64,000 nucleotides of DNA from Forficula auricularia (lineage: Eukaryota; Arthropoda; Insecta; Dermaptera; Forficulidae), in the NCBI GenBank assembly GCA_024734495.1, contig JALMQS010000818.1, forward strand, positions 210,846-274,845. Direction: 5' to 3'. Positions 312-56,560 of this stretch are shown here, piece after piece. The notes beneath the pieces are model-generated. The model made no database searches. It saw only the letters and a program-made list of their open reading frames with translations, and was not told the origin of the DNA. A program made the position numbers and the translations under genes. Every line of letters begins with the position of its first letter. The first letter of the stretch is position 1.

Positions 312-584
312 TAAAATCATATGTTGAAGGAGACAATAAAAGAGTGTGTCTTCTTCTGGAATTATAAATTTTATTTATTTATAACGAGATTATAGTTTCA
401 TAAATTAATTCCTGTGAATCCATTGTAATAGACTGATGAAGAGGGCAAAGCCCTCGAAACTATAGTCTCGTTATAAATAAATAAAATGTATAATTCCAGC
501 AGAAGACACACTCTTTTATTGTCTCCTTCAATATATAAAATTCTACTACTCTCGGCACAAAAACTTTCAATTTAAAATCATGTG
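312..584 (+). mobile_element. Hammerhead-bearing short retroelement, family A copy 1, with target-site duplication
   Basis: A short unit (324-572) is bounded by near-identical 12 bp direct repeats, TAAAATCATATG at 312-323 and TAAAATCATGTG at 573-584 (11 of 12 match), read as a target-site duplication. Inside, 325-400 and 458-535 are inverted copies (GGAGACAATAAAAGAGTGTG and its complement), so the transcript would fold into a long hairpin with a hammerhead ribozyme in the loop. The right end carries a tail containing CTACTCTCGGC. Relatives lie at 3122-3395, 9444-9621 and 32890-33110. The design matches the LTR-like ends of Penelope-like elements, which are known to carry hammerheads. No protein is encoded. 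The Penelope-like assignment is by architecture only. Confidence 0.7.
433..467 (+). ncRNA. Hammerhead ribozyme, family A copy 1
   Basis: The core is CTGATGA at 433-439, one extra A (440), helix II GAGGGC/GCCCTC (441-446 with 450-455, AAA loop), GAAA at 456-459, a short helix III ACT/AGT, and cleavage triplet GTC ending at 467. Helix I forms outside the core: A432-T468 and G431-C469, a small internal loop, then 423-428 with 471-476 (six pairs, one G-U). The predicted cut is after C467. An extra base between A9 and helix II recurs in this window and is known from a viroid hammerhead. An internal loop in helix I fits type I hammerheads. Confidence 0.8.
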
Positions 585-841
585 TATTATTATATTATTA
601 TGATTAATAAAAGTGTAAATAATGGTTTAGTTTACACTGAGGATATGCGAATTATAGTACCTATAATTCCCATTAAAATGAACAAGACAACGTTTATACT
701 AAGTGCATCAAGAAAATTTAAAATACGTATAAGGTTCCTATATAGTATAATATTACAGAAAATAATATCTAAAAATTATTTATACTTAGTGGAACGTAAC
801 ATATTTTTAAATTGGTGGATTATTTAATAGATAGAGTTCGT

Positions 842-1114
842 TTACAGCTCTCTTAGTGTGTTTGATACACGGATGATAATCAGGTAACCTAACCAATCGT
901 CCTCCTTTAGGGAGGACAGTCCTTCTTTTGTAAGCTCTGTCCTCACCTGAAAAGTGTCCACATACATGTTTTCCTTTTCGATATTTGAAGAATAATCTGT
1001 AAATCTTCGTATTAGATCGAGATTACGTATATAGATATTATAGATAAATTCAATATGAAGACATTCCTTGTTCAGATATTTACAATATATTGTTAAGAGA
1101 TGATATATTGACAT
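842..1114 (-). CDS. Unrecognised 90-residue open frame
   Basis: An intact frame of 90 codons begins with ATG at 1114. The C-terminal third is charged (it includes RTELTKEGLSSLKEDDWLGY) and looks more protein-like than the AT-driven N-terminal part, which is rich in I, Y, N and L. I see no domain, signal peptide, nearby splice site or polyadenylation signal that would support a gene, and I do not recognise the protein. It could be a fragment of a mobile-element protein or chance. The rest of 585-1447 is AT-rich with nothing else I can assign. Confidence 0.15.
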   Translation of the reverse strand: MSIYHLLTIYCKYLNKECLHIEFIYNIYIRNLDLIRRFTDYSSNIEKENMYVDTFQVRTELTKEGLSSLKEDDWLGYLIIIRVSNTLREL

Positions 1115-1447
1115 TCAATGGAAAAGTAGGTACTCATTTAAATAAAAAATAATAGGCATGTCAACATAATTACAATATAAAATGCTATTGTATACAAATG
1201 TTTTTACTATGCATTTATCATATTATACCATAGTTTATTATTGTTTCAATGAATAACATGTTTCTCTTCGATATTTTTTTCTTCAATTAATTTGTGTCCT
1301 TTTCATTGTAAAAAAGTTGGTCACCTTAATGATATATCAAATTTTGTTATATTTGCTGAAAGTGGGCCTACGAATTCCAAAAATAAAATTTTAATATAGA
1401 CTCTACCTAAAGCACTATACTATTATACACTAACCTACACGCTAGAG

Positions 1448-1849
1448 CAGGAGTTCCCAAAGGCGCCCTTTTTTCAATTAAAATTTTTCCATGGCGCCCT
1501 ATTATATAATATTTATTTTAGCCGCGCAGGAGGGGGCCTCCTTTTACAACAGATAAGTAGTTTATTATAATTGGGTCTATACAATTGGTGGTAATATTTA
1601 CATTTCTCTCTCTCTCTCTCCCTCTTTATTTAAAGTAGTAGCATTGTTAAAATGTTTTCATATGTCAAATGTATATTAAGTAAAAATATGTCTATCGTAA
1701 GTAAGAGATACAAATAAATACATTTTTATTTCTCACTTTATTTTATGTTTAGTTAGGCCAAATTAATGTCTTCCTTCAATTAATTATCAAGCTTCATGGG
1801 GCACCTGTGAAGTGGCCGAGGCTCCCCGGGGCACAGTTTGGGAGAGCAA
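1448..1849. mobile_element. Probable non-autonomous hAT-like MITE
   Basis: The left end reads CAGGAGTTCCCAAAGGCGCC and the right end GGCACAGTTTGGGAGAGC. These are roughly inverted to each other and resemble hAT ends (CAGNGGTTCCCAAA). The interior is AT-rich with a (TC)n tract near 1609-1622 and no coding frame. I do not see a clean 8 bp duplication, so the right boundary is uncertain. Confidence 0.35.
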
Positions 1850-3062
1850 CTTTTATGGTGATTCAGTACCGAAAAACTTAGATGGGAATATAAAAATTTT
1901 AATAGTAATATTGATTATTTATTTATTTTTATGATAATGTTGGAAGAAGGTGTTGCACCAAGCCGAAAGCAGAATCAGTCACTGGACAGGGGAATCTTAA
2001 AAAGAACTCATGAAAGGCTGAAAATTATATGTAGCTGGTAAGACAAATGTGGGAAAGACGTTCGATCTTTAGTAATCATAGGAATAAACAAGTTGGTGAA
2101 TACGTTCTTTCGAATTGCATCTAATTTGATAGCGAGGAGATGGTGAATATTTGAAAATCGTGTGTTTCACGCAAATGAGGCTTTCAGTTGTTGAATTTAT
2201 CGCGCCAGAACATACGCCATATTAGTATCTATAAAAAGGGAAATATTGGAGACGGATTTTTAAAGAGCCAGGTAATCGAATGAGCTAGGAAGGGCTGAAT
2301 ATCCCATCGCCCGCCTCTGAATTGCATCAGAATTAAAAGTATGGAATCGGTATTTTTTTATATGCAAGTAACTATAATTCTTAAAAAAAAATTCAAATTT
2401 ATTAAATAGGAAAAAAAATTAAAAAACTTTTTCCAAGACTCCGTATGCTTTCGACAAATTTAGTGATTTGTCAATAATTAGATAATAAATGGTTTGAATG
2501 AGATGGTTGAAACAAGAACAGAGGTAGCAAATTTCCGTTCATTAGCTTATAATCTTTCGATAGCTTACCATGTAAAATTCATTTTTTCTGATATTTTGCG
2601 TTTTCTTTTTTTCTGAAGATAAAAAAATAATCTGTTCTTTGTTTTGGAAATACTAAATATAAACAAACTTCAGTTCATGAATTATATCATTGGAATCGGA
2701 ATTCAGATAGACAAACAAACAGATAGAAAAATCATTCTCGAAAATGATCTTTCTCAACGATTTAGAGATTTTTAAACATTAATAATCAAAATTTCATGTG
2801 AATTCAATACAGCGTATCGAGATGAAATGAAAAATGTATTATATGAATGCCATCAAAACCTGAACTCATAAATGTATCATTGAGTTGTAGCTCTACTGGT
2901 TGCGACAATTATTATTTCAAAACACTTGGATATTCTTATCTGAACAAGAATATAAAATCGATTTGGCTTAAAAGCCGAAACTTTTCAAAGAATGACACAT
3001 GTTTATCTACTTAATTATTCGCGGATATATTAGGAATTTTAGAAAAATGTACAACTATAAAT
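1850..3062. other. AT-rich stretch, nothing identified
   Basis: No frame, RNA gene or clear repeat is recognisable. A short coding-like run on the plus strand near 1946-2040 is broken by stops. A TATA-like CTATAAAAAGG lies near 2230 but no gene follows it. Confidence 0.4.
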
Positions 3063-3121: not shown

Positions 3122-3395
3122 AAATTGAGAAATATTATTAAATTGAAAGTTTCTTTTTTGCCGAGAGTGGCAGAATTTTTATATAAATTAAAGGAGACAA
3201 TAAAAGAGTGTGTCTTCTGCAGAAAAAATAAATTTTTTAATTTATTTATAACGAGACTATAGTTTCGAGGGCTTTTCCCTCTTCATCAGTCTATTTGATT
3301 CACAGGAGTTGATGTGGGAAAGTATAAATAAATTAAAAAATGTATTTTTCCAGCAGAAGACACACTGTTTTATTGTCTCCTTTAATTAATATATT
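3122..3395 (-). mobile_element. Hammerhead-bearing short retroelement, family A copy 2
   Basis: This is a minus-strand relative of 324-572. The family tail (GCCGAGAGTGGCAGAATTTT) is at 3160-3180, and inverted arms at about 3188-3215 and 3350-3385 surround a complete hammerhead. The upstream bases repeat the motif AAATATTATTAAATTGA twice. A target-site duplication is not clear. Confidence 0.6.
3254..3289 (-). ncRNA. Hammerhead ribozyme, family A copy 2
   Basis: On the minus strand CTGATGA (3289-3283) is followed by A, helix II GAGGG/CCCTC with an AAAAG loop, GAAA, helix III ACT/AGT and the cleavage triplet GTC. Compared with copy 1 helix II has lost its sixth G-C pair but still closes, and the rest of the core is unchanged. 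Confidence 0.72.
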
Positions 3396-3417
3396 TATTT
3401 CTTTATTATTAATCAGA

Positions 3418-7494: not shown

Positions 7495-7537
7495 CTTTCG
7501 TAGACCCTTTTAAATCCTGAAGAAGGAGGGACGATCG
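7495..7537 (+). ncRNA. Hammerhead half (family D) cut off by a LINE insertion
   Basis: The text CCTTTTAAATCCTGAAGAAG matches the 5' half of the complete ribozyme at 11248 (CCTTTGAAACCCTGAAGAAG). At about 7538 it switches to Jockey-like sequence, so GAAA and helix III are missing. It is a broken remnant. Confidence 0.5.
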
Positions 7538-8609: not shown

Positions 8610-9435
8610 CAGTGGTTCTTAACCTTTTATTAGTCACGGCCCCCTTAAAATCCGAAAGTATATTCGCGGCTTCCTTAAAATTCTAAAATATTTTCGCGGC
8701 TAGTACCCCCTCCCCCCACCACCACCATTAGGTAACATACTCGTAATTACTCGTACACAAAAAAAACCCACAAATGTATTAATAATTCATAAATGTTGTT
8801 GAATACACTCCACTAATTTGTCTATTCGCACTTCAATTGCGTTACTTAAAGCTATTCGCATGCAAAAGGTCTATTCGGAGTCGATTACGTTGCTTCGTTT
8901 TAATATTGACCATTGTGGAAAATCCTTTTTCGCACAGAAACATATGTGGGAGCGAAAGGCAATAAATGTTGTATGGCGATGGAGAACAGGTGTGGATATT
9001 CCTTCCGAATATGTATCCAAAATTGTACCAAACTTTTTTCTTGAAAAGTGAATTCAAACTTAAATCCTTTATCAATTCAATCAGAGTGTCATCGTGGGTT
9101 GGTGATAAATTGGTATTATCCCAGTTATTATAGGGATCTCGAATCCACAATTTTCTGCTATCAATTTCATTATTTGGAAAATATTTGTCAAATTTTTCAA
9201 TTAATTTTTGGAGATGACATTGAATTAAATAATTTGTATGTTCTTTATCAAATTCACAATTATCTGTAATCATTTGAGAATAATTTGGAAACATTTCGAA
9301 AACATTCGATTCTATTCTTTGAATCCATGTACGAAGTTTCATTTTCATAGCCTCTATTTTATCTCGGATGGAAATAATGTTGTGTTGATTTCCTTGCATA
9401 GATAAATTTAGTTGCTTTATCAGATTGTCGGTAAT
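8610..9435 (-). pseudogene. hAT transposase fragment (ZBED5/FAM200 type) with right terminal repeat
   Basis: The minus-strand frame 9399-8842 codes for the C-terminal part of a hAT transposase of the ZBED5/FAM200 group. Recognisable segments are FPNYSQMITDNCEFD, LWIRDPYNNWDNTNL and the C-terminal block FLCEKGFSTMVNIKTKQRNR, which contributes to hAT dimerisation. The frame continues upstream to about 9435 (IKQLNLSMQ) and is then interrupted. The element end CAGTGGTTCTTAACC begins at 8610, with GTATAGAG outside. The N-terminal BED finger and catalytic residues are missing. A second, fuller copy is at 27571-30130. Confidence 0.8.
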
Positions 9436-9632
9436 AACATATTAAATAGAAAGTTTTTTTGTCGAGAATAGCAAGAATTTTTTATATATTGAAGGAGACA
9501 ATAAAAAGAGTGTGTCTTCTGCTGGAATTATAAATTTTATTTATTTATAACGAAACTATAGTCTTGTTATAAGTAAATAAAATTCATAATTCCAGCAGAG
9601 GCTTTCTTTATTGTCTCCTTCAATAACATATT
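9433..9632 (-). mobile_element. Family A short element with ribozyme core deleted, inserted in a hAT remnant
   Basis: The 11 bp direct repeats AATAACATATT at 9433-9443 and 9622-9632 bound a 178 bp unit. It has the family A tail (GTCGAGAATAGCAAGAATTT) and inverted arms (GGAGACAATAAAAAGAG and its complement), but the loop retains only GAAACTATAGTCTTG: the CTGATGA and helix II segment are gone. It lies at the edge of the hAT transposase fragment, so it arrived later. Confidence 0.7.
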
Positions 9633-9804: not shown

Positions 9805-9936
9805 CGAGGGGTGAACCGCGACCTAAAATCGTGTACACCTACTTCAACTTCCACTTTCATTTCCAAGTAGAAGACAATAGCATAAAATAGATTATCTAAT
9901 GAATTCCAAAATAATAATTCTAAAGACTAGCATTAT
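9805..9936 (-). mobile_element. GGTGAACCGCGA MITE, partial
   Basis: CGAGGGGTGAACCGCGACCT starts at 9805, followed by the family interior (ACCTACTTCAACTTCCACTT). The other terminus is absent, apparently replaced by the Jockey-like fragment that follows. Complete relatives are at 20585-20738, 31672-31837 and 34403-36032. Confidence 0.6.
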
Positions 9937-11029: not shown

Positions 11030-11480
11030 TTTCTTATTCTTCCAGCTTTAAAAAATAAAAAGGTAATTTTTTGGCAACGAAATTTTCTCAGGAGAGATGA
11101 CGGACTGCTAGGATCTAAATTAAGAAAAAGGAGTGAAAAAAAATTGTTTTTCTATGCCTTTGTTAAAAATGAAGAAAGTTTTTGAACACTACTGTGGAGA
11201 GAAGAAGGAAACATTTTATTTGTTTCATTCATTGACCCTTTGAAACCCTGAAGAAGGAGGAAAAACCCTCCGAAACGTCGGTTTGAAAGGAAAGGAGGAA
11301 GGATTCCAATAAATTACACCTTATTTGATATGTGTTAATTTTTTCTTTCCTCATTACCTCTGGGCTGCCTTCCATTACATTCAATAAAAAGGTAATCTTT
11401 CGAAGATTTAGGAAAATAATGGAATATACAGGGACGTAGGTAATGGAGAGGGGAAGGTTAAAACCTCCCCACCCCCATAC
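11030..11480 (+). mobile_element. Family D Penelope-like LTR unit
   Basis: AT-rich sequence with a complete hammerhead (11248-11279) and a downstream block CTCTGGGCTGCCTTCCATTA. The same ribozyme flank and block reappear, decayed, at 40330-40510, and the ribozyme half alone at 7495. The overlapping minus-strand frame 11489-11229 is only a shadow of this structure. Boundaries are approximate. Confidence 0.45.
11248..11279 (+). ncRNA. Hammerhead ribozyme, family D (best helix I)
   Basis: CTGAAGA (position 7 is free in hammerheads), extra A, helix II GGAGG/CCTCC, GAAA, helix III as the minimal self-complementary ACGT, cleavage triplet GTC ending at 11279. Outside the core, 11237-11247 pairs with 11280-11290: five pairs, one G-G mismatch, five pairs. 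A two-pair helix III with no loop is typical of hammerheads thought to work as dimers, including those of Penelope-like elements. Confidence 0.85.
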
Positions 11481-12223
11481 ATGTGACACAATTTTTTCTG
11501 CAGAATGGGAGAACTGTTCCGAAACACTTCAAACAGTTCTCCTTGTCCATACGCTTTAACAGAAGCATCAGTGGTTTGATGACATGAGATTTTTATTAGA
11601 ATAACATTTAATTTTTTTACCTATAGTGGGGCGAGGGGAATAAGATATCTGAACAAATTAGTTGATTAGTGCCCCCTCCCTATCTCAGTCACCAAGGGCT
11701 CCAATAAAAATCTATACTTAGGCCACTCGGGAGATTTCACGGTTTGGAAAAAAGTGCCGAAACGCCATTCCAGTCCGTCCTGGCCCCACTACAACCCTGG
11801 TCATCATGTAATTTCATTTAATCAAGAACAGATGCCTCTCAGTGGCGTCATTAAATTATAATGTGAACAATGGGACTTCATTTGTTGAACAAAATCTGAA
11901 AATTCTAATTTGATGATTTCTGAAGGTCTAGTTCTAAGTTTAATTTATTTCTGTATTTGCTTTTAATACTCTCTTCACAGAAAATGCTACTTCATACAAG
12001 TAAATAGAATCAAACGCTAAGAGTGCATCCATTCCTGGATTACTCGGATTTCAGTCCCATCCACCCATCAATCCTGAAGAGATTTTTGTTCAAATTCGAT
12101 TAGTAATGTACTGTATTTTGTCTAACGTTCAATTAGGTCCTCTTGAGAAAGAATGGGATGGTGTTCAGTTTTTTCAACTTTACAGAATTAGTTTTAATGG
12201 TTAAAGTGTGGAAATTTTAATAT

Positions 12224-13207
12224 TTGTTATTCTTTAATTATTTACCACCATGTACGGGTACCCACTTTGGAGACCACTGTCCTAAGCTGCAATATGTTGA
12301 TGATAGCCTGGCTATTGTCAAGAAAAACAGCGTAGACTTTTGCATAGAGGCTCTTAATGGTTTCACTGATAATCTATTCTTCACATATGAAAAAGAAATA
12401 AACAATAACATCAGTTTTTTAGATATTAAAATTATCAGAGTTGGAAAACAGTTGAGGACGGACTTATATATGAAAGATTCAAAATCAAATTGAATGTTGA
12501 ACTTTAGATCAATTCAACCACTTCAACATAAAATTAGTTTAACATATGGAGAAATAAGTAGATTGGATAGAATATGTGATGAGAGCTATAGAGACATTAG
12601 ATTGAATGATCTGCAAAAGAAATGTGAAAGCAATGGATATTCGAAACAATTTTTCAATGAAGTTCTAGCTAAATATTGAAAAAATAAATTAGTAATAAAT
12701 AAATAAGATAAAATTATTAAAGGCTCCATCCCATATATAGTACATGATTTATCTGCGAAAATCTTGAGAATTCTAAATAATAATGACATAAAATTGGTAC
12801 ACAGTGTTAGCAGGCCACTCATGAACATATTCAATAATAAGACTCATGTTGAAAAATTTGATAAAATGGGGGTTGTTTATGAGATGGTCTGTGATACTTG
12901 TAAAAAAGATAAAAAAGCACACAAATATATAGGTGAGACTTCAAGGCATTTGAGACAAAGAATAAAGGAACATATTTCATCGATTAATGGAAATAAATTG
13001 GTCTCCGCGTTGTCCATTCATGCTATTGACAACGAACATAGTTTCGATTTTGAAGGTGTGAAGATTATAGATTATGAGATGAATTGGACCAAGAGGAAAA
13101 TAAAAGAATCTCTTTATATATTGAAAGATATCGATGAATGTGTAAATTTCAAAATGGATTCGGAAAACATATCAGAATGCTACAGTCTCATTGTGTCATT
13201 GTTGTGA
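12224..13207 (+). pseudogene. Penelope-like element: reverse transcriptase end and GIY-YIG endonuclease
   Basis: Three frames in order give the C-terminal half of one Penelope-like ORF. The first (12224-12493) has the RT motif YVDDSLAIV and NNNISFLDIKI. The second (12494-12679) is the thumb and linker region (NFRSIQPLQHKISLTYGEIS). The third (12764-13207, open from about 12715) ends in a GIY-YIG nuclease: VVYEMVCDTCKK, then KYIGETSRHLRQRIKEH and SALSIHAIDNEHSF. Stops after codon 90 and at 12677-12679 separate the parts, and the N-terminal half is not recognisable upstream, so this copy is dead. A hammerhead lies about 500 bp downstream, where Penelope-like LTRs place it. Confidence 0.85.
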
Positions 13208-13701: not shown

Positions 13702-13741
13702 CTGAGGATGGTCAACCAGTGGTGACCGAAACTGTATAGTT
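13702..13741 (+). ncRNA. Hammerhead ribozyme in the 3' region of the Penelope-like element, family E
   Basis: CTGAGGA, one extra T, helix II GGTCA/TGACC around ACCAGTGG, GAAA, helix III ACT/AGT around GTAT, and cleavage triplet GTT ending at 13741. Helix I is weaker: TA (13700-13701) pairs with TA (13742-13743), then AG (13696-13697) with TC across a two-base bulge. All core positions are intact. Confidence 0.65.
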
Positions 13742-20220: not shown

Positions 20221-20493
20221 AAAAGACTATTAAAGATTAAATGGGTAGGATAGAAATCACAAACAAGTAACTTCTTAAAATTACAGAAAATAGAATAGTT
20301 TGCTAGAATCTGAAGAAGAGAAGAACTCAAATGATCGGGACACATTAAAGATTGCTAAAGGATATTTTATTAAGGCAAAGAAATTTAAAAAAAATTTAAG
20401 AAACTATTAAAATTAAAAAAAATTAAAATTCTAGGTAGATTTCACAAAAAAAAAATAAAATAAATAAAGGACAATATGCTTTTGTTTAGCATG

Positions 20494-20539
20494 ACTCAAT
20501 ATATATTGTATTTCGGAGTATGAGCCCATCTTCAGGAGT
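20494..20539 (-). ncRNA. Hammerhead ribozyme, family B copy in a palindrome
   Basis: Minus strand: helix I ACTC (20539-20536) pairs with GAGT (20497-20494); CTGAAGA; extra T; helix II GGG with TCC (one G-U); GAAA; helix III ATA/TAT around CAATATA; cleavage triplet ATT ending at 20498. Helix II is weak. Confidence 0.6.
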
Positions 20540-20584
20540 TCACAGAGGAAACTGAACTCCTGAAGATGAGCTCTACCCCAGAAG

Positions 20585-20738
20585 CGAAGGTGAACCGCAA
20601 TTGGAATTAGGTATACACGTCTTTGGAATTATTTTGGAATTCATTGGATAATGGCCCTTCATATATTGTCTTCTACTTGGAAATGAAAGTGGAAGTGGAA
20701 GTAGGTGTAGACGATATTAGGTCGCGGTTCACCCCTCT
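20585..20738 (-). mobile_element. GGTGAACCGCGA MITE inserted in a hammerhead
   Basis: The termini are CGAAGGTGAACCGC and GCGGTTCACCCCTC. Flanks CCCCAGAAG (left) and CCCCGAAAT (right) are consistent with a decayed 8 bp duplication. The insertion point falls at the junction between helix II and GAAA of the plus-strand ribozyme, breaking it. The interior contains the family block ACTTGGAAATGAAAGTGGAA. Confidence 0.7.
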
Positions 20739-21089
20739 CCCCGAAATATATATAGAGTCATGCTAAACAAGCATCTTGTCTTTTATTTTATTGATGTCCC
20801 TTGCCCGCTTCATTTTGGAGAAAGTCTGCCGACGATGACATGAGGCGATGTATCTGCCGCATTGGAGCATATTTTGAATAAAGCACTTTTTATCATTCTT
20901 TTGAATTTAACATATTTTTTAGAAAAAAATCCGCATTTCATACTTGTACACCTAGTATTCTGTAATTAAAAAATAAATCAAAAGCATAAGTGTTTCTAAC
21001 TGTTTGTGTGTCTACTAACACTACTTATGTGCTGTTTAAATGGGCTTTGTTCCCGGTGACATTAAATAAATAAATAAAAAAAAAACCCT

Positions 21090-29153: not shown

Positions 29154-29416
29154 ACAACATTTTTTTATAACATTTAGGGAAAGCGGTGTTGGTTTATAGT
29201 GAAACATATTAAACACAGGAGTTTTTAAAGGGTTATAGTGGTGTTTCACAGATAAAAATAAATCTTCATTCAGTCTTTTGTAAACTCAAACTCCTGATGA
29301 TGGGCTTAAAAACCCGAAATATGTATAGAGTATTTAAAATAAAACTCCAAAAATATAAATAAAAAATTTTTTACTTGTGAAACACCACTACTAACCCTTT
29401 TAAAACAACATTTTTT
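29154..29416 (+). mobile_element. Family B hammerhead unit inserted in the hAT transposase
   Basis: The unit 29166-29404 is bounded by 12 bp duplications ACAACATTTTTT (29154-29165, 29405-29416) and splits the transposase between NQHNIF and RDRIET. It begins with TTTAGGGAAAGCGGTGTTGG, has inverted arms (GTGGTGTTTCAC and GTGAAACACCAC) and a complete hammerhead in the loop. Relatives are at 51401-51593 and 56370-56560. Confidence 0.8.
29290..29331 (+). ncRNA. Hammerhead ribozyme, family B, in the hAT insertion
   Basis: Helix I ACTC (29290-29293) pairs with GAGT (29328-29331). CTGATGA at 29294-29300 is followed by an extra T, helix II GGG/CCC, GAAA (29316-29319), helix III ATA/TAT around TG, and cleavage triplet ATA ending at 29327. 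All core bases are intact. Confidence 0.75.
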
Positions 29417-30491
29417 CCATGCGAGATAGAATAGAGACAATGAAAATGAAACTTCGTACATGGATTCGAAGACTAGTATCGAATGTTTTAGAAATGTTTC
29501 CAAATTATTCTCAAATGATTAGAGATAATTGTGAATTTGATAAAGAACATATAGATTATTTAATTCATTGTTATCTCCCAAAATTAATTGAAAAATTTGA
29601 CAAATATTTTCCAAATAATGAAATTGATAGCAGAAAATTGTGGATTCGAGATCCTTATAATAACTGGGATAATACCAATTTATCATAAACCCACGATGAC
29701 ACTCTGATTGAATTGACAAAGGATTTAATTTTAAATTCACTTTTCAAGAAAAAAGTTTGATACAATTTTGGATACATATTCGGAAGGAATATCTACACCT
29801 GTTCTCCATCACCATACAACATTTATTGCCTTTTGCTTCCACATATCTGTGCGAAAAGGGATTTTCCACAATGGTCAATATTAAACCGAAGCAACGTAAT
29901 CGACTCCGAATAAACTTTTAAATGCAAATAGCTTTAAGTAACGCAATTCAATTGTGAATAGACAAATTAGTGGAGTGTATTCAACAACATTTATGAATTA
30001 TTGTTACATTTGAGTTTTTTTGTACGAGTAATTACGATTATGTTACCTAATGGTGGGGGGAGGGTACTGGCTGCGAAAATATTTTAGGATTTTAAGGAGG
30101 CCGCAACTAATAAAAATTTAAGAACCACTGATCTAAAGCATTCAGGTCAGATATCATTTATCATTTATTGCCAATTAACAATATGATTGTATGATTTGGC
30201 TCTGGAGGAGGTTCTTGAGATGGGTGGGTCAAGGGCCATTCAATCCAATCATTTATGAATGATCTTACGAGACATAATTCTGCCCTTCGCTAATGCTAAC
30301 CCAAATAGGAAAAATAATGAGACCATAGATAAGAGATAATGAGACTATTCACTGAAGCAGTAGTGCTGGCGTCGTGTCCTCGATTTTTTTTTTTTAGAAA
30401 ATAATTTTGATTCATTATTTCTCGATTCAGATAATCACACTAATTCAAGAACGCAAAGTTGTAGAAGGTTCGTTCTGGTGCCAAAATGTTG

Positions 30492-31663: not shown

Positions 31664-31845
31664 TCGTCGGCCGAGAGGTGAACCGAAATTGGCATTAGGT
31701 GTACACCGTCTTTGGAATTATTTGGAATTACTTTGGAATTCATTAGATAATCTATTGTCATCTATTGTCTTCTACTTGGAAATGAAAGTGGAAGTGGAAG
31801 TAGGTGTACAGGATTTTAGGTCGCGGTTCACCCCTCGTCGTCAGC
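31664..31845 (-). mobile_element. GGTGAACCGCGA MITE with 8 bp duplication
   Basis: The element 31672-31837 has ends CGAGAGGTGAACCG and CGGTTCACCCCTCG. Flanks TCGTCGGC (31664-31671) and TCGTCAGC (31838-31845) match at 7 of 8. It is the cleanest copy of the family, 166 bp long. Confidence 0.78.
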
Positions 31846-32279: not shown

Positions 32280-32790
32280 AAACTGAAGTGTTCTGATGTG
32301 GCCATCCACTTGACTTTTCCATACAACCTTTCCCCTCACTTATATTTAATAAAATTATTTATAATCATGTAGGGAAGGGGGGTTAGTTTTTCCATCTTTA
32401 GACTTCTGGGGGTCCACTGATTATGTATACCAAATCTGGTTGAGTTTGGTACATGGGCCTAGATTTTCATTTTTTAAACCTACACCCCCTCATTTTGGGC
32501 GGTTAGTTTTTGCATTTTTAGACTTCTGGGGTCCCATTGATTATGTATATAAAATTTGGTTGAGTTTGGTACATGAGCCTAGATTTTCATTTTTTAAACC
32601 TACACCCATTTTGGGCGGTTAGTTTTTGCATTTTTAGACTTCTGGGGTCCCATTGATTATGTATACAAAATTTGGTTGAGGTTGCTCAAGTGGCCTAGAT
32701 TTTTAATTTTTAACCTCCCCTTAATTTTGGGTCGATATGCACCAAAATCTAATCAGCTCTTAATCTCAATGCACCAAATATATAAATATA
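32280..32790. repeat. TACCATACA-family copy with three internal modules
   Basis: After GATGTGGCCATCCACTTGAC the module TTTTTAGACTTCTGGGGTCC occurs three times (about 32393, 32513, 32630), giving a tandem structure of roughly 120 bp. The right terminus is missing. Confidence 0.55.
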
Positions 32791-32889
32791 TATTTAAAAT
32801 ATAATTAAAATATATAATCCAGAATTAATAATATCCTATAGTTAAATAGTTAAATATAAATAATTAAATATAAATAATTAATTAAATTG

Positions 32890-33110
32890 AAAGTTTTTGC
32901 CGAGAGTAGCAGAATTTTTATATATTGAAGGAGACAATAAAAGAATGTGTCTTCTGCTGGAATTCGATTCATAAATTAATTCCTGTGAATACATTGTAAT
33001 AGACTGATGAAGAGGGCAAAGCCCTCGAAACTATAGTCTCGTTATAAATAAATAAAATTTATAATTCCAGCAGAAGACACACTCTTTTATTGTCTCCTTC
33101 AATAAATACT
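32890..33110 (+). mobile_element. Family A hammerhead unit, copy 4, loop in the opposite orientation
   Basis: The tail (TTTTTGCCGAGAGTAGCAGA) is on the left and the ribozyme is on the plus strand, whereas in copies 1 and 2 the ribozyme reads towards the tail. The arms GGAGACAATAAAAGAATG and CACTCTTTTATTGTCTCC surround the loop, so the loop appears inverted between its own arms. No clear target-site duplication. Confidence 0.65.
33004..33038 (+). ncRNA. Hammerhead ribozyme, family A copy 4
   Basis: Identical to the copy at 433-467 across the whole core: CTGATGA, A, GAGGGC/GCCCTC, GAAA, ACT/AGT and GTC. The external helix I (UUGUAA with UUAUAA after an internal loop) is also preserved. Confidence 0.8.
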
Positions 33111-34394: not shown

Positions 34395-36040
34395 ACTTGC
34401 ACCGAGGAGTGATCCGCGATTGGAAGTACTTGGAAATATTTATATTACTTATACCCCCAAATCAACCTCATGGGCAAAATAATTTTCAGGCCTCAAATAA
34501 TCATAAAAGCCATTAATAAATTAAATTCCAACTCCGCCGCTGGCCCGGATGACATCCACCAATTCTCATTAAAAAAGGCGCCCCTGAACTTGCCCCTATC
34601 TTATCCAAGCTATTCCAACTCTCTTACGAATCGGGCATATTCCCCAAAAGCTGGAAAATAGCCAGAGTCACACCTATTCCTAAAAAAGGAGACTCTTCAC
34701 AAATCTCTAATTACAGACCTATCTCGATCACCTCTGTTCTTTCCAAAATAATGGAATTGGTCATAAACCAACACGTCCTTCATCACTTAGAAAACAATAA
34801 ATTAATTCACGATAGGCAATATGGATTCAGACAAAATCGTTCCACAGGCGACATCTTAACCTATGTCACCCACACCTGGAACAATACTCTAGAGGCCGGA
34901 AAAGAAACCCTCGCTGTAGCTCCTTGATATCTCCAAAGCTTTTGACCAGGTTTGGCACAAAATCTTCTTGCCAAACTGCCAGCCTTTTGGATTCACACCA
35001 ACACTTCGCAAATGGATAGAAAGCTTTCTGACAAACCGAAGTATAAAAGTTGTGGTGGATGGAACATCATCTGAATCGTTCTCCACAAACGCTGGTGTTC
35101 CCCAAGGCTCTGTAATCTCCTCCACACTCTTCCTAATTTATATAAACGACCTTATCGATCAAACGGCAAACCCCACTCATTGTTACGCCGACGATAGCAC
35201 TCTACACGGCAAACCCCTCACTCCCGAATAATCGAATCAATGTTGCCTCCTCAATTACTCTCGACCTAGACAAACTGAATAAATGGGGCTCTCAAAATTT
35301 AGTTAACTTTAATTCAAACAAGACTCAATGTTGTCTAATTTCTAGGCACGAAAATAAAGATTTCCCTGATATTCACTTCGATTCGAATACCCTGAAAATG
35401 TGTGACAACCTATCCATGTTGGGCGTCTCTGTCGCATCTGACCTGTCTTGGAATGAACACATCTCCTCTGTGGCGAAATCTGCAGCAAGGAAGATTGGCT
35501 TCTTATTCAGGTCACAAGCGATTTTACAAGCCCCCACAACTTCTCACCATCGACAAGGCCCAAATCCGTCGGACCACTTCATTCGCGAATACATATATCC
35601 CTATGACTTCAAGGAACTGGAACTCTCTCCCAGTCTCCCTATCTTTCCCAGCACCTATAATCTTCAAACCTTTAAAACCAGGGTGCATATATGCCACCTA
35701 CGTCTACACCCTCTCACTTAATCAACTTTCCCTTCTCTTCGGTAATGCAAGGGTCTTTAGAGATCCATAGGAGCTGCATCTTTACTGGTGCACCCCTTCT
35801 TGCATTCGATTGCACTAAAAAAAAAAAAAAAATTTGGAAGTACTTGTAAATATTTGAAAAATACTTGGGAATATTTTGAAAGTACTTGGGAATATTTGGA
35901 AGTACTTGGAAATATTTAGAAGTGCTTGGAATTATTTGGAATTACTTGAAAATAGATTGAGAAGCTCTTGAAATATTTGGAAGTACAAGTGGAAGCAGGT
36001 GTACAGCATATTAGGTCGCGGTTCACCCCTCGCCTTGCAC
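34395..36040. mobile_element. GGTGAACCGCGA MITE enlarged by a LINE insertion
   Basis: Ends CGAGGAGTGATCCGCGA (34403) and TCGCGGTTCACCCCTCG (to 36032) have flanks ACTTGCAC (34395-34402) and CCTTGCAC (36033-36040), matching at 7 of 8. The MITE interior has many copies of GGAAGTACTTGGAAATATTT. The Jockey-like copy 34450-35831 sits within it. The MITE itself lies in a family I unit whose intact version is at 22870-23120. Confidence 0.75.
34450..35831 (+). pseudogene. Jockey-like non-LTR retrotransposon with A-tail
   Basis: It codes, in broken frames, for a reverse transcriptase: NSAAGPDDIHQFSLKK, then KIARVTPIPKKGDSS with NYRPISITSVLSKIME, an FDQVWHKIL-type motif A block, FSTNAGVPQGSVISSTLFLI, and HCYADDSTLHGK with the ADD active site. 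The C-terminal region and 3' UTR follow (GGTGCACCCCTTCTTGCATT) with an A-tail at 35816-35831. At least three frameshifts and an internal deletion near 35540 inactivate it. The sequence GGAAGTACTTG(G/T)AAATATTT on both sides may be a target-site duplication or simply the MITE's own repeat. Confidence 0.82.
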
Positions 36041-39775: not shown

Positions 39776-40199
39776 AGAAGAGTTGCCGAATGATCGATGA
39801 CAGATGGCAGAATATATATATATATGGAATATTTATAGAGAATAATAATGACCCTGCTAAATGTATAATTTTAATTATTTTTCTTCAATAATCAGCATGC
39901 GATGATGATAAAAGCGCTCTTGTATAAATATAAATATTTCTTTTTAATAAATCATCAGCTCGCGTTTGCTCTTAGACTACAAGTACTGACATGTTTCGCT
40001 GCAAGTCAGCACTGGTTGCCGTGTTCAGGCGTTATCTATGCTTATAAAAGCTGCCCTCTTCAACTTTACAATTATTTCTTCAATCCTTTGCGATAATAAA
40101 AAAAATTCTGTTTGATTAAATACATAAGATGTTTCAAAATTTTCAGTATTCTAAGGAAAATAAATTCAATAAAAAAATCAAATAACTTCGTTAGAAAGA

Positions 40200-41204: not shown

Positions 41205-42697
41205 CAGGGTGATTCACGATCGATGGCACGTTAGAGGTTTATAGAAAACGGAACACAGGATTTTTCTGAAAATTTAGCACCTTACATTTTCTTACCTGTT
41301 CTATCGATCTAAAATATTTTCAGCATTGTGACGTTTCGGCTTCCATCGAAAAGTTGTAGCAACTTTATTTTTTTAAATGGAACACCCCATATATTAACAC
41401 GTTTTTAGAACCGCCCTTTTTATTAAAATACTTTTTTGTTAATATTGTCCTATACCTATCTCTATCGGTTTTCGAGATAAAAAATAATTTGTGTTAAATA
41501 TGGTCCAAAACATGGCCCTAATTAAACTTAAATAAATTAGTGCTCTCAATTCATGAAAAGTTGATATTTTGGTGGTAGTTTAGACACACCCGAAGTATTT
41601 AATTTACGCCGAAAAATCGACTCCATATTATACAGGGCGTGCTAAGATTACTATTATTTCCGTTATTCATAAAAGGGGTCAAAAGTTCGTTTTTTCAAAT
41701 GAGACCCCCTGTATATTACTCAATAAATTGAAAGACGAAGAAAAATGCTTTAAGACGATATATCATGTCCCTATACCTAAAACATCAAGTTTTCTTAATA
41801 AAGGCGCTTTTTCGTGAAAAATTACTTTTTAATTAATTTAATTTTAACTAACCATGGAAATATCAAGCTTATGACAGTTTGTTGACTATTTATAAGAAAC
41901 TTATAAAGAGCTTATTGACGGTGTTCAAAAAAATCTCCGAAAATGACCGCAATTATTGATTATTCAAACGAAGTTCTTATGAAATTATTTATTTTGTACT
42001 ATAAGAACTTCGTTTGAATACAAATTGTCATAAGCTTGATATTGCCATGGTTAGTTAAAATTTAATTCATTAAAATGTAATTTTTCACGAAAAAGCGGTT
42101 TTATTAAGAAAACTTGATGTTTTAGGTATAGGGACATGATATATCGTCTTAAAGCATTTTTCTTCGTCTTTCAATTTATTGAGTAATATACAGGGGGTCT
42201 CATTTGAAAAAACGAACTTTTGACCCCTTTTATGAATAACGGAAATAATAGTAATCTTAGCACGCCCTGTATAATATGGAGTCGATTTTTCGGCGTAAAT
42301 TAAATACTTCGGGTGTGTCTAAACTACCACCAAAATATCAACTTTTCATGAATTGAGAGCACTAATTTATTTAAGTTTAATTAGGCCATGTTTTGGACCA
42401 TATTTAACACAAATTATTTTTTATCTCGAAAACCGATAGAGATAGGTATAGGATAATATTAACAAAAAAGTATTTTAATAAAAGGGCGGTTCTAAAAACG
42501 TGTTAATATACGGGGTGTTCCATTTAAAAAAATAAAGTTGCTACGACTTTTCGATGGAAGCCGAAACGTCGCAATGCTGAAAATATTTTAGATCGATAGA
42601 ACAGGTAAGAAAATGTAAGGTGCTAAATTTTCAGAAAAATCCTGCGTTCCGTTTTCCATAAACGTCTAACGTGCCATCGACCGTGAATCACAATCCA
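41205..42697. repeat. Giant palindrome 1 (foldback element)
   Basis: Arms 41205-41877 and 42023-42697 are inverted copies with very few mismatches. The outer ends are GATGGCACGTTAGAG and its inverse CTAACGTGCCATC; matched internal landmarks include TTATACAGGGCGTGCTAAGA and GAGACCCCCTGTATATTACT. A 145 bp spacer holds a smaller hairpin (CAAACGAAGTTCTTAT with its inverse). No coding frame. A transcript through it would form about 670 bp of duplex RNA. Confidence 0.85.
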
Positions 42698-49234: not shown

Positions 49235-49523
49235 ATATGGTGTATAGGATTGACTGCAGAGGACTGCAATAAAATGTAGGTATATTGGAGGAAACAAAGA
49301 GGAAATTAAAAGGTTAGATTTTCCAGTTGAAATCATGAAAAATCTGTAGTACAGCAAGAACCCAGTTTCTGCATTGGCTATACATGCATTAGACAATAGG
49401 CATAATTTTAAATTTGATGACGGCCGAAAAATAATTTTCGCGGAAAGTAACACCTTCAAGAGAAAATTTTATGAATCAATCTTTAGAAGAAAGAACTTAA
49501 CTGGAGACTCATGTGAATTTTAA
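49235..49523 (+). pseudogene. Second Penelope-like element: GIY-YIG fragment
   Basis: Around 49240-49310 the frame gives MVYRIDCRGLQ, a stop, then NVGILEETKRKLK, a degraded GIY...YIG motif. From 49354 to 49523 it continues KNPVSALAIHALDNRHNFKF and ESNTFKRKFYESIFRRKNL, ending at TAA. This aligns with the domain at 12764-13207 (VSALSIHAIDNEHSF). The reverse-strand frame 49459-49136 is a shadow. A hammerhead-like core follows about 400 bp downstream, as in the first element. Confidence 0.75.
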
Positions 49524-49923: not shown

Positions 49924-49958
49924 CTTGAAGATGACATATTTGTAAATGTCGAAACGTT
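49924..49958 (+). ncRNA. Hammerhead-like motif downstream of the second Penelope-like fragment, family F
   Basis: CTTGAAGA (one extra T relative to CTGAAGA) is followed by helix II GACAT/ATGTC (five pairs), GAAA, self-complementary ACGT helix III and the triplet GTT. The extra base in CUGANGA makes activity doubtful. Helix I is weak (TAG with CTA). Confidence 0.5.
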
Positions 49959-51389: not shown

Positions 51390-51604
51390 TTTTAATAGAT
51401 ATATAATAATAAAACTTGAGAAGATGCGAGGTAGGTTTCACAAAAAAAGAAATAAAACAAAATTGAGTTTTGAATTCGATATATTTCGAGGGTGAGCCCA
51501 TCATCAGGAGCCAGAGAAAACATCTTGCTGCAAATTTTATTTTTACATTAAAATTTTTCAGCTAGAACCAACACCTAACTCCTTAAAAGTTATTTTTAAT
51601 AGAT
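51390..51604 (-). mobile_element. Family B hammerhead unit with 11 bp duplication
   Basis: Perfect direct repeats TTTTAATAGAT (51390-51400 and 51594-51604) bound a 193 bp unit inserted in a palindrome arm. It contains AGATGCGAGGTAGGTTTCAC, a hammerhead on the minus strand and the family end GAACCAACACCTAACTCCTT. The same end sequence is at 40612-40650, 17206-17245 and 63975-64000. Confidence 0.8.
51472..51512 (-). ncRNA. Hammerhead ribozyme, family B, in palindrome 3
   Basis: Minus strand: CTGATGA (51507-51501), extra T, helix II GGG with CTC (one G-U pair), GAAA, helix III AT/AT with a two-base loop, cleavage triplet ATC ending at 51478. Helix I has only two Watson-Crick pairs next to the core, followed by G-U pairs, so it is the weakest of the complete cores. 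Confidence 0.55.
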
Positions 51605-53339
51605 TTGTTTATGTTTGCATGTAGAGGGTCCTACCCTCTCAAGAGTTGAACCCAAGCATTAGTTTACTTTCCGGGCAACTATTCAGACTCCAAACATGCA
51701 ACATATAACGAAAGCAGAAAATTTTCACTCCATTCAACTCGATTGGAATAGTAAATATTACCGCTTAACTGAAATAAAGATTCAGCATCGGACCATCCCG
51801 GAGGCTATTAAATGCAAAGAAATGAGTGTCTATTTGAAAAATTTCTTTGCATTTAATAGCCTCCGGGATGGTCCTGATAGTGAATCTTTATTTTAGTTAA
51901 GCAGTTTTTTACTAAACCAATCGAATCGAATGTTTTCTACATTTGATTCGCGATTGAATCAAATGTAGGAAATTTTTGTCAAATATTGAGTGAAAATAAT
52001 ATCTGAACTTATATATTTCTAACTTGAAATAATGATGTTAAATAAATTTATAATTTTTCTCATTAATATATCAAAGAATAATTGATATATCAACGAGAAT
52101 TATTTTGACCGCGCTTATTTGAAAAAGATATTTATCGCGAGACTACTGCGGATGACGCTATTGGAGTCTGCGGAGTCTTAAGTCTGGACCAAGAGAGAAA
52201 AAGATGTGATCCATTTAGCTACAATCCAACGTCATTTCGCGTATAGCCTGCATGACATTCGGATGGATCACCAAATGAATTTGAAATCTCAGATGTTATA
52301 TATTCGATCTCCCAGTCCAGAGCCGCTTGATCTATTAGCATGTATGTTAGATGCTTGCCATTAATTAATCGAATGTTTTCTACATTTGATTCAATCGCGA
52401 ATCAAATGTAGGGAATTTTGTCAAATATTGAGTGAAAATAATATCTGAACTTATATATTTCTAACTTGAAATAATGATGTTAAATAAATTTATATATTTA
52501 ATGTCAAGCATCTAACATACATGCTAATAGATCAAGCTGCTCTGGACTGGGAGCTCGAATATATAACATCTGAGATTTCACATTCATTTGGTGATCCATC
52601 CGAATGTCATGCGGGCTATGCGAGCTATGCGCGAAATGACGTTGGATTGTAGCTAAATGGATCACATCTTTTTCTTTCTTGGTCCAGACTTAAGACTACG
52701 CAGACTCCAATAGCGTTATCCGCAGTAGTCTCGCAATAAATATCTTTTTCAAATAAGCTATATTCTTTGATATATTAATGAGAAAAATTATAAATTTAAA
52801 CCAATCGAGTTGAATGGAGTGAAAATTTTCTTCTTTCGTTGTATGTTGCTTGTTTGGAGTCTGACTAGCTGCCCGAAAGCAACCTGCTTGGGTTCAACTT
52901 TTGAGGGGCAGGACCCTCTATACATGCAATATAAACTTATCTATTAAATCTTTGATTCGACCTAAGTTCATTTTGTTAAAAAATCAATTAAATATCGAGT
53001 TGATTTTTGAGAATAAATTCGTTCTTTCTTTTTCAAATAGACACTCATTTCTTTGTTTTTATGTTTGTAAAATAGAAAATATGATGACTTATCGATTTGC
53101 CCATTCTTCAGACATTTCTTGTTCCATTCCTTTAATCATTCCATCTTCCATCTTTTTCAATATTATTCTATTGTCCCAATCAATCAGACCGTCACTTTAA
53201 ATTGAAATAAATTTAAAAAATTAAACAATTCTACGTCAAGATATCTTTACAGGGATACTTCACACGATGTCTAAAAAAATAAATTTGATTTTTGACCCCA
53301 CATAAACGAATTGTGGGTTCGCCCCATTCTGTTCAACTT

Positions 53340-54560: not shown

Positions 54561-54724
54561 CAAAAAATTAATATACCTATTGTATTAAAGGTATGGAATT
54601 CTTTAGAAAACAATTTTATATCAATGAAGAAACTTGCTAGTGCTCTTTTAACAATGTTTGGATACACATATTCGTGTGAAAAATTATTTTTCTCCATTAA
54701 TTTTGTAAAATCTACCAACAAATA

Positions 54725-55430
54725 AACTGACGTGTTCTGATGTGGCCATCCACTTGACTTTACCATACAACCTGGCCCCTAAAATTATTTATAATCATGT
54801 AGGGGGGTTAGTTTTTGCATTTTTATACTTCTTGTGTCCCACTGATTATGTATACAAAATTTGGTTGAGTTTGGTAAATGGCCAAGATTTTCATTTTTTG
54901 ACCCTACACCCCCCCCCCCATTTTGGGCGGCTAATTTTTGCATTTTTAGACTTCTGGGTTTCCACTGATTATGTATACAAAATTTGGTTGAGTTTGCTCA
55001 AATAGCCTAGATTTTTAATTTTTAACCCCCCCCCCTTAATTTTGGGTCGATATGCACCAAAATCTAATCAGCCCTTAATCTCAATGGACCAAAACTACGT
55101 GTGAAATTTGGTTTCGATATTCACACTAGTTTTTGAGCTAACTCGTCCACAAAAATTTGGTAACGCACAGAATAAAGGACAACCAGACAGACAGACTAAC
55201 TAACAGACATTTTGACAAAACAATTATTATCTCGAAAAATATAATTTTTTCGATGTTCACTTATTAGGGCTTTTTTGTAGAGAGAAATGCCATGGTTTAG
55301 CTCAATTTTTTTAATCAAAATAGTTTCAGCCGTTTTTGAGATATTTCGAAAAAAAAAAAGGAAAAAAAAACACTTTTTTCATGCACGATTACAATACTTG
55401 ACCATACCCTGTAGGGTAAAGTAATATAAA
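54725..55430. repeat. TACCATACA-family copy
   Basis: Full-length layout with two modules (TTTTTAGACTTCTGGGTTTC), a poly-C tract, GACATTTTGACAAAACAATT and the end TGACCATACCCTGTAGGGTA. Accidental frame 54742-55005 runs through it. Confidence 0.6.
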
Positions 55431-56019
55431 CTTGGAAATGAATTCACTGCGAAATGCGTTAAACTAATGAATAAGGAATATTAAGAAACTATCTGAAAAT
55501 AAGTAACTACAGATCTCGCATTAAATATACTTTTATCAACTTTATTATACATACACATCTGTGTATATTTATTTATAAAGAAGAGTTCTAAAATTTGCTC
55601 TTATCCACTTCTTGTGAGAGAACTTTTTCATTTCAGAAAAATATGCTTCCTAATACGAAAAACTAGTTCACAATGAATAATTTAAATACTTTTTTAATCA
55701 AAAATGTTAAAAATCATATTTCCTGAATTTTAGTCACATTTTTATTATTAATTTCGTTAAAAAAATATAATTTAAGGAACTATAAGACACTATTCAAGTT
55801 TTTTTAAGGCACCATTTACTACAATATCAGTGTTTTTAAGGGACTAGTTTCTTAAAATTAGAACATAAAAATCCACGCTCTACTTTAATCTACTCATCTG
55901 GAGGAAAAAACGATAAAGATATCGAAGCTCTATCTATTTTCTATGATAAAAAACCTAATAATAGAGCTATTGAGTATATTAATGTTTAGTATTATACAAA
56001 TATGTATATATCATTTATT
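55431..56019. other. AT-rich stretch, nothing identified
   Basis: No protein, RNA or repeat signal that I can support. Confidence 0.35.
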
Positions 56020-56345
56020 TGTTAGACTATAATATAGTTCCGAAGGTTTGACCTTCATCATCAGTCTTTTAATTAGTTAATATTTTTTCTGTTATTTCAG
56101 ATGGGTTCAATTACCCGATTGGATATAGATAAATTTGTGTTGTTGTTATAGCAAGCTAGCCAGATAACAAACCAAATAAATTAAAAGAGTGATGATGGTC
56201 AAACCTTTGAAATTATGTCTCTAACAAATAAATTATAAATATATAGATATTTATATTCGGTATATATATATTTGCATCAAGCAGAGAGCGGCCTCATTTC
56301 TCTTTATGAATCATCAATTTCTGCTATTTTCGCCAAAAGAAAATG
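56020..56345. mobile_element. Family G inverted hammerhead pair, decayed
   Basis: Minus strand near 56067-56025: CTGATGATGAAGGTCAAACC, then CTTCGGAAC in place of GAAAC, and ATAGTC. Plus strand near 56191: GTGATGA in place of CTGATGA, then TTTGAAATTATGTC. Each has lost one core base. Family G terminal sequence follows (TTGCATCAAGCAGAGAGCGG). Confidence 0.5.
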
Positions 56346-56369
56346 TTTTCAATTAAAATATTTAAATTA

Positions 56370-56560
56370 ATAAAGTAAAGGGAGTGTAGTTTCACAGTGA
56401 ATGAAATAAAACTCAAAGAGGTTTATACAAACTCAAAATATTTCGGATTATTAGTCCATCATCAGGAGTTTACAGATTAAAAACGGTGAAACTACACTCC
56501 CTTTACTTTATTAATTAATATCATGTTTCACCTAAAACCTACACCACTTTCCCTAAGTAA
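56370..56560 (-). mobile_element. Family B hammerhead unit
   Basis: Inverted arms (AAGGGAGTGTAGTTTCAC at 56379 and GTGAAACTACACTCCCTT at 56486) surround a complete hammerhead. The family end ATGTTTCACCTAAAACCTAC and CACTTTCCCTAAG follows. Target-site duplication not evident. Confidence 0.65.
56429..56471 (-). ncRNA. Hammerhead ribozyme, family B, strong helix I
   Basis: Minus strand: helix I AAACTC (56471-56466) pairs with GAGTTT (56434-56429), six Watson-Crick pairs plus two G-U beyond. CTGATGA (56465-56459), extra T, helix II GGA/TCC, GAAA, a minimal helix III (one to two A-U pairs) and cleavage triplet TTT ending at 56435. Helix III is the weak point. Confidence 0.62.

Follow-up and report, generated by a model that had tools for sequence, protein, structure and literature searches.

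The window analysed here is a stretch of 64,000 nucleotides of the Forficula auricularia genome (assembly GCA_024734495.1, contig JALMQS010000818.1, positions 210,846 to 274,845). It is AT-rich and carries coding remnants resembling long interspersed nuclear elements (LINEs) and Penelope elements. Hammerhead ribozyme motifs are present on both strands (Table 1), many of them inside short insertions built of two mirror arms. An earlier note on this DNA had described many hammerhead motifs of several families on both strands, and this was found to be correct; the pairing helix III and the special standing of the window that it also put forward were not. At the level of the DNA sequence, we describe the motifs, their density in a genome sample, their head-to-head order, target duplications and one-sided tails, the clustering of inner ends in the commonest family (family C), and the GIY-YIG genes linked to them. 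An insertion mechanism is then proposed.

The nine cores that had been listed as intact all match CTGANGA...GAAA (9/9), positions and strands included. They are a subset of the 18 matches to CTGANGA-N3..33-GAAA in the window, compared with 4.8 +/- 2.0 in shuffled sequences, and none of 100 shuffles reached 18. Six matches in the window were obtained with a stricter descriptor (core, helix II, NUH and helix I), compared with 0.075 on average for 200 Markov-1 random sequences. One of these six, at 39958, we take as chance, as well as the pattern matches at 2613, which has no family support, and at 7517, which sits inside a LINE-like coding stretch. About ten further cores had been called mutated or cut, three of which were seen: 56064 (-), 41009 (+) and 20560 (+). 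The hammerhead motifs are genuine and exceed chance by far, and they belong to a known kind.

Rfam release 15 detected no hammerhead in the window, neither at the curated (gathering) cut-offs nor up to E=5. Zero matches to the Rfam models had been named in the earlier note as the first half of what would speak against hammerheads. The silence of these models is probably due to the near absence of helix III, which they may expect. A covariance model built from 12 cores, all from outside the window (model R1), recovered 8/9 of the listed cores at E up to 0.11, three of them below 0.001, which supports their identity as hammerheads. The training cores of R1 were picked by a descriptor that demands pairing, so its pair counts lean toward structure. 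Core 51507 was missed by R1 in the window scan. Up to E=1, the model gave nine further matches beyond the listed cores; the one at 49926 outscores five of the listed cores.

Helix II was analysed in a core-only set of 53 hits, collected without a pairing filter from the window and from a 200-kb sample (twenty evenly spaced 10-kb stretches of three contigs of the 1.06-Gb assembly); reversed sequence gives 5 hits. All four outer helix-II pairs are formed in 25/53 hits, compared with a mean of 4.2 and a maximum of 12 when the 3' strands are permuted, and by this comparison helix II covaries between families. The helix-II pairs quoted in the earlier note are real, and the sequences vary widely (GAGG/CCTC, GGAG/CTCC, GTCG/CGAC, GTTG/CAAC, GAAG/CTTC, GGCC/GGCC, GGTC/GACC, GGGC/ACCC, and others). 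These are not textbook cores, because helix II pairs only when one nucleotide after CTGANGA is skipped: the register is +1 in 25 hits, 0 in three and +2 in one. The invariant CUGANGA and GAAA and a paired helix II are present, but an additional nucleotide (A or T in most hits) lies between A9 and helix II. Of the motifs that passed a helix-II filter, 29/32 have this nucleotide; of the remaining three, two are likely due to chance and the third is a copy that carries an inserted base. An additional core nucleotide is also reported for a viroid hammerhead in the title of an article by De la Pena and Flores from 2001.

Helix III does not pair as an independent helix, comprising only 1-4 bp with almost no loop (ACGU at 11248). 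For helix I the picture is mixed: the descriptor was passed at 11248, 13702, 29294, 56465 and 20535, the helix is weak at 51507, where helix II is also damaged, and at 433, 3289 and 33004 it would by eye require an internal loop. A type III reading of family A, in which the long arms would form helix III, was also considered. Copy 433 folds so in part; the reading was dropped because copies 3289 and 33004 have no pairing left arm near the core. That the extra U generally creates an AUG start codon was rejected, since the nucleotide at this position is A in families A, E and H, and in one family C subfamily the frame ends after two codons (by eye).

The sample of 200 kb contains 24 motifs with core and helix II against 0 in the reversed sequence, and the window contains 8 against 0, a few of those counted being chance (2613 in the window, 321 in locus L017). 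The window is thus ordinary for the sampled genome, and the presence of so many families within 64 kb, which had been singled out as the notable point, is a property of the genome. Extrapolation from the three contigs puts the genome total at 0.8 to 1.9e5 motifs of this kind. A single exact pattern of family C has 4998 genome matches against 0 for the reversed pattern, and roughly ten hammerhead families were distinguished by eye in the genome material. For comparison, passages of PMC7229834 report more than 6000 motifs in 16 families for a coral.

The surroundings of the 32 motifs were compared with the motifs themselves (motif plus 110 nt against 600 nt on each side, score of at least 25). 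For random pairs, the 95th percentile of this score is 19 and the 99th is 31, so that about 1/32 is expected by chance. An inverted copy was found 5' of the motif in 22/32 cases, corresponding to 20 elements, two of which have both arms intact and were counted twice. Four of the 32 motifs lie near the edge of their contig stretch. Within the same 600 nt, no motif had an inverted copy on its 3' side (0/32), and none had a direct copy on either side (0/32), so that no tandem direct repeats were detected. Family C showed the same order: across 47 loci, adjacent arms were head-to-head (-+) 32 times, tail-to-tail (+-) three times, -- once and ++ never. The family C loci were found by their intact core, and 8/47 (L029-L036) had been picked as visible close pairs on opposite strands. 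Cores on both strands had been correctly reported; the head-to-head inverted arms, many with target duplications, had been missed. Both strands carry motifs because one insertion holds two mirror arms.

Two elements were folded. Family A copy 1 (316-573) forms a long hairpin of -125 kcal/mol (z -21). The element at L007 also folds as a long hairpin (-131 kcal/mol, z -19), in which its hammerhead is paired to its own complement; copies that have lost one arm would expose a hammerhead otherwise bound in this way. The GIY-YIG genes and target duplications spoke against a viroid-like replicon, a rod carrying hammerheads of either polarity, and this reading was not kept. Animal-type non-autonomous retrozymes, small circular-RNA retroelements with functional type I hammerheads, are, as described in parts of PMC7229834, similar to these elements in size (~200-270 nt) and likewise rich in AT, and they too have a self-paired RNA and target duplications of variable length. 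In the published ones, direct repeats of 150-450 bp stand in tandem and helix III is usable; the present motifs have hardly any helix III, and 0/32 have a direct neighbour within 600 nt, which makes retrozymes a very unlikely explanation.

Complete copies have the order target duplication, tail, arm, centre, mirror arm, target duplication. Five copies of this plan are present in the window (313-584, 9434-9632, 29154-29416, 51390-51604 and 56355-56575). Target duplications of at least 11 bp were found in 21/31 paired family C copies, compared with 145/928 mismatched flank pairs; mismatched flanks can reach 11 bp too, and a single target duplication is therefore not proof. Eighteen out of the 21 duplications sit 34-55 nt outside one arm and -14 to +10 nt outside the other, and those of L003, L032 and L043 are oddly placed or tail-internal matches. 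A tail is present at one end in 26 of the 31 family C copies, at both ends in one (L032:706-1044, the only such copy in the set) and at neither in four, where independence of the ends predicts 15, 6 and 9. Without the eight picked loci (n=23) the numbers are 20, 0 and 3. The one-sided tail in 26/31 copies is possibly new. Single copies of other families also have one-sided tails and duplications of at least 13 bp, namely A (433, L011), E (L028), H (L012) and J (L019); duplications of this length also occur in 20/650 mismatched flank pairs.

The terminal inverted repeats and short length would suit foldback DNA transposons, or miniature inverted-repeat transposable elements (MITEs), with a hammerhead-like sequence in their terminal repeats. 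Such elements should have duplications of fixed length and symmetrical ends. Instead, duplication length varies from 9 to 18 bp, one end has a tail, and some copies hold a truncated GIY-YIG gene between their arms, so that we give this explanation hardly any credence.

A degenerate Penelope-like coding stretch, broken by stops and with a counterpart in L021, is present in the window upstream of core 13702. Its GIY-YIG part, on the same strand as that core, matches Pfam at E=2.4e-4 and 21.8 bits, below the cut-off of 22.6, and its reverse transcriptase (RT) piece at 12221-12490 has no Pfam match. A Pfam match of the linker to a neurohormone was rejected as sub-threshold and implausible. In the window and in other copies, Pfam GIY-YIG matches range from 18 to 21.8 bits, all below the curated 22.6. 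No solved structure was matched by the sequence of the GIY-YIG fragments, and none of the nine database relatives of the GIY-YIG piece is named Penelope. A second, short match to the Penelope-like GIY-YIG protein of this stretch lies at 49365-49514 (52% over 50 aa, E=1e-8), with the R1 match 49926 downstream.

Elsewhere in the genome, a truncated GIY-YIG gene lies between both arms in L033, L034 and L035, and 5' of the hammerhead on its strand in L037, L038, L049, L054, L056 and L058. Relative to this gene, the tail is on the 5' side in L033 and L035, and on the 3' side in L034, L038 and L056. The Penelope-like origin assumed in the earlier note is most likely right, as GIY-YIG fragments are linked to motifs in the window and elsewhere; the name is suggested by the weak GIY-YIG matches, the YVDD remnant and the insertion plan. 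This plan, a pseudo-long terminal repeat (pLTR) and an inverted pLTR with a target duplication and an optional tail, is that of Penelope. Parts of PMC3846280 describe inverted pLTRs, target duplications, head-to-head junctions with palindromes, and a 31-bp tail optionally at one of the inverted pLTRs. In the Anolis element PAc (PMC11167929), the tail corresponds to the interval separating two RT start sites, both target strands are cleaved and extended in vitro, and hammerhead mutants still insert, so that cleavage is not needed for insertion. The insertion arrangement is the one already published, and the LTR hammerheads recognised earlier belong here.

Family C arms were further compared for their inner ends, using the 43/65 arms that match one of four upstream strings. 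Twenty-four of these arms, from 21 loci, end between -7 and +4 relative to the A of TCAGT or TTAGT, within 12 nt. Three others end at +9, +18 and +19, and 16 at +39 or beyond. The longer arms reveal the usual upstream sequence, from which it follows that the short class stops at one place. This place lies just 5' of the hammerhead, and by eye cores 51507 and 20535 of the window stop near the same TCAGT. The clustering is possibly new; no report of it was found in the open-licence PMC literature. TCAGT resembles the arthropod initiator consensus, and the stop may represent the RNA 5' end. Hammerhead cleavage is predicted to fall 3' of the core, and sequence from either side of this site is present in the arms; the templates would thus have been uncut there, and hammerhead cleavage was presumably bypassed in these insertions.

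Mate arms of the same copy were more similar than re-paired arms (0.074 against 0.138 over 26 copies and 82 arm columns; 0/5000 permutations as low). Much of this is a subfamily effect. Within the main subfamilies the values are 0.052 and 0.065 (19 copies, 0/5000), and without the picked loci 0.056 and 0.070 (14 copies, 2/5000). Between copies of the main subfamilies, distances are 0.045 for tail-tail, 0.084 for end-end and 0.065 for tail-end comparisons; the last is the mean of the other two, so the sides form no groups. Arm distances with flanks included gave no clear signal (0.202 within copies, 0.240 between copies on the same side, 0.244 on opposite sides), because these flanks are non-homologous.

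These distances bear on the possibility of a master palindrome, that is, a non-autonomous foldback transcribed as a hairpin and copied as a unit, whose palindrome is inherited and not remade. Families A and C do share the same plan, and by eye the subfamily type is equal in both arms of the 26 aligned copies. Against an inherited palindrome, no side-specific variants unite the arms of one side, mates are still closer than re-paired arms in the main subfamilies, and some copies hold a GIY-YIG gene between their arms. The argument from rare variants is weak (16/18 in divergent subfamilies). Altogether, a master palindrome appears improbable.

The likeness of mate arms would also be expected from self-priming, in which one cDNA or antisense RNA folds back and is copied into the second arm in a single target-primed event. 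It has been proposed for the Penelope elements of Adineta from palindromes at the inverted junction (sections of PMC3846280), and the centres of L007 and L053 are palindromic to within one base. However, self-priming should repeat the tail at the second end, and the copy stops ~45 nt short in 26/31. Where just one base of the centre is unpaired, there is no room for a hairpin loop, and the inner ends are unequal in L036, L040 and L066. We therefore regard self-priming as rather unlikely.

With a probability of roughly 0.58, we favour the reading that these are hammerheads of a minimal, type I-like form, located in the 5' leader (pLTR) of several Penelope-like families and left as very short insertions by two cDNAs. 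Transcription would start at the initiator-like TCAGT, ~15 nt upstream of the hammerhead. The RT/GIY-YIG protein of the element may cut both target strands, some 10-18 bp apart, and reverse transcription could be primed from both target ends, at the outer and the inner of two start sites located ~45 nt apart and roughly 110-155 nt into the RNA. Each cDNA would run back to the 5' end of the RNA, or further on a longer tandem transcript template, and the two cDNA ends would be joined head to head. The predicted product has a target duplication, a tail on one end and two mirror arms, each strand bearing a hammerhead; a truncated GIY-YIG gene may sometimes remain between the arms. From the features described above we infer the Penelope name, the transcription start, the priming at two ends and the bypass of cleavage. 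More tentatively, and at somewhat less than even odds, Penelope retrotransposition might normally proceed by two coupled target-primed cDNAs, one per broken end, with different start sites in the leader and run-off at the cap site.

Several points weigh against this proposal of leader hammerheads copied from two target ends. The proposed start site was guessed from the likeness of the DNA sequence to the initiator consensus. Among the copies read there is no intact full-length element, some centres are near-perfect palindromes, and the explanation offered for inverted repeats in passages of PMC3846280 is self-priming. Eighteen rare variants are common to both arms (2.0 expected), 16 of them in divergent subfamilies, where they may be subfamily markers, and the mate is nearest or tied in just 16/52 arms. 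The inner-end count dropped 22/65 arms, most from subfamilies without a reference string; five of these end 0-1 nt from the core, and one member of the cluster was missed through a deletion. Its filter hides ends nearer than 8 nt, and since the family C loci were chosen by an intact core, ends inside the core are invisible. The clustering was seen in family C only, and the few copies read of families E, H and J extend further upstream with no obvious initiator.

The elements of the window are given in Table 1. Several families are present, as had been claimed, but the nine cores do not represent nine families: by eye and by self-comparison, 433, 3289 and 33004 belong to one family, and 20535, 29294, 51507 and 56465 to one superfamily. 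The left arm of family A copy 1 overlaps the target duplication by chance.

Table 1. Hammerhead-bearing elements, linked coding remnants and covariance-model matches in the 64,000-nt window
Feature	Position	Strand	R1 match (position, E)	Details
Family A copy 1	313..584	+	427, 0.06	core 433-459 (+); arms 319-399 / 456-536; one-sided tail ~537-573; target duplication AAAATCATATG 313-323 / AAAATCATGTG 574-584, one mismatch
Family A copy 2	3140..3393	-	3256, 0.021	core 3263-3289 (-); arms 3180-3250 / 3323-3393; tail ~3140-3179; no convincing target duplication in flanks
Family A copy 4	9434..9632	+		tail and two arms; centre and hammerhead core deleted; target duplications ATAACATATT at 9434-9443 and 9623-9632
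Family E core	11248..11275	+	11242, 2.4e-9	helix I 5+5 bp; helix II GGAGG/CCTCC; helix III only ACGU; inverted partner not found within 600 nt
Degenerate Penelope-like coding stretch	12221..13204	+		RT remnant YVDD 12221-12490; linker 12494-12676; GIY-YIG 12707-13204
Family F core	13702..13731	+	13696, 2.5e-5	~500 nt downstream of GIY-YIG end; no inverted partner at threshold used (score 25, 600 nt)
Family C/B inverted pair	20455..20795	-	20492, 0.11	core 20511-20535 (-); outer arms 20455-20507 / 20745-20795; target duplication not found in flanks
Broken mirror core	20554		20554	among the extra R1 matches
Extra R1 match	22944		22944, 0.18	
Family C copy	29154..29416	+	29288, 0.019	core 29294-29319 (+); arms 29221-29258 / 29368-29406; tail left; target duplication ACAACATTTTTT at 29154-29165 and 29405-29416
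Family A copy 3	32885..33108	+	32998, 0.06	core 33004-33030 (+); arms 32919-32964 / 33063-33108; tail left; only a low-complexity target duplication candidate in flanks, no good one
Extra R1 match	49926		49926, 0.0086	
Extra R1 match	51060		51060, 0.059	
Family C copy, one arm largely deleted	51390..51604	-		core 51484-51507 (-), damaged helix II; tail right; target duplication TTTTAATAGAT at 51390-51400 and 51594-51604
Family G-like core	56037..56064	-		GGAA replacing GAAA; within palindrome 55994-56256
Family C copy	56355..56575	-	56431, 3e-4	core 56441-56465 (-); arms 56360-56398 / 56483-56521; tail right; target duplication AAAATATTTAAA at 56355-56366 and 56564-56575

In the family C/B pair, the mirror hammerhead on the + strand from 20560 has its helix II split by an insertion at ~20571-20741. 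This insertion is a small element with inverted ends GGTGAACCGC...GCGGTTCACC, and relatives of it are present at 9806-9927, 31676-31836 and 35978-36034. The region of the family C copy at 29154..29416 has an insert-free paralogue at 8890-9419. A transposase-like coding stretch, hAT-like by eye and with no Pfam match, occurs twice (8842-9441 and 29402-29894), and one of the two contains the hammerhead insertion. An apparent foldback element at 41209-42691, distinct from the hammerhead families, has inverted repeats of 366 nt (98%) and 228 nt (94%), and a near-perfect hairpin with arms of ~37 bp lies at 51790-51876 inside a larger palindrome (51731-51932). MicroRNA models of Rfam fit this hairpin below cut-off because of its shape, and the Rfam microRNA matches were rejected as sub-threshold fits to inverted repeats. 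A 117-nt unit is present in partial tandem copies (spacing 116-123) near hammerhead elements, at 32377-32729, 54802-55041 and 56882-56998.

Of interest here are the number of copies, the tail that is mostly confined to one end, and the inner ends at an initiator-like site; the mechanism is inferred. According to portions of PMC7761336, minimal hammerheads are mostly dispersed motifs of unknown role; the present elements suggest an origin for them, and a motif scan may pick up many arms held in a duplex with their own complement. If the model of two coupled cDNAs is true, the dispersed minimal hammerheads of animals would be fossil leaders of capped mRNAs, each copy preserving a transcription start and a reverse transcription start. 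For the origin of inverted copies, self-priming is offered but left undecided in PMC3846280, and PMC11167929 stops at the first steps in vitro. In a genome with perhaps 1e5 copies this becomes a counting problem, in which tail side, inner ends and arm variants can test the models.

Penelope minimal type I hammerheads were reportedly described by Cervera and de la Pena in 2014 and by Lunse et al. in 2017, and are said to act as dimers. They reportedly have the CUGANGA...GAAA core, a good helix II and nearly no helix III, similar to the motifs found here. Nearly all cores here have an extra nucleotide after A9. Unlike in dimeric minimal hammerheads, the head-to-head order means that an RNA holds a hammerhead together with its complement instead of a second copy.

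Animal non-LTR retrozymes, in the parts of PMC7229834 that describe them, are likewise small and AT-rich, with a type I hammerhead and variable target duplications. They are tandem direct repeats, often with loop-loop contacts, whereas the present elements are inverted pairs with no usable helix III. Viroids share the extra residue in the hammerhead core and both polarities in a self-paired RNA (CChMVd, chrysanthemum chlorotic mottle viroid, in an excerpt of PMC7761336). A viroid is a replicating RNA, whereas here both polarities arise from the mode of insertion of a DNA copy.

The closest systems are the Penelope families of Adineta vaga (as far as covered by portions of PMC3846280) and the Poseidon element PAc of Anolis (PMC11167929). 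Similar to the earwig elements, these have an open reading frame ending in GIY-YIG, a pLTR and a head-to-head inverted pLTR, together with a short target duplication and a tail of 30-45 nt on one end, and PAc also has a hammerhead without helix III. Unlike in both, many copies here are reduced to the two mirror leader arms, family C arms often have their inner end at an initiator-like site, and about 1e5 copies, by extrapolation, with roughly ten hammerhead families by eye, occur in a single genome of 1.06 Gb.

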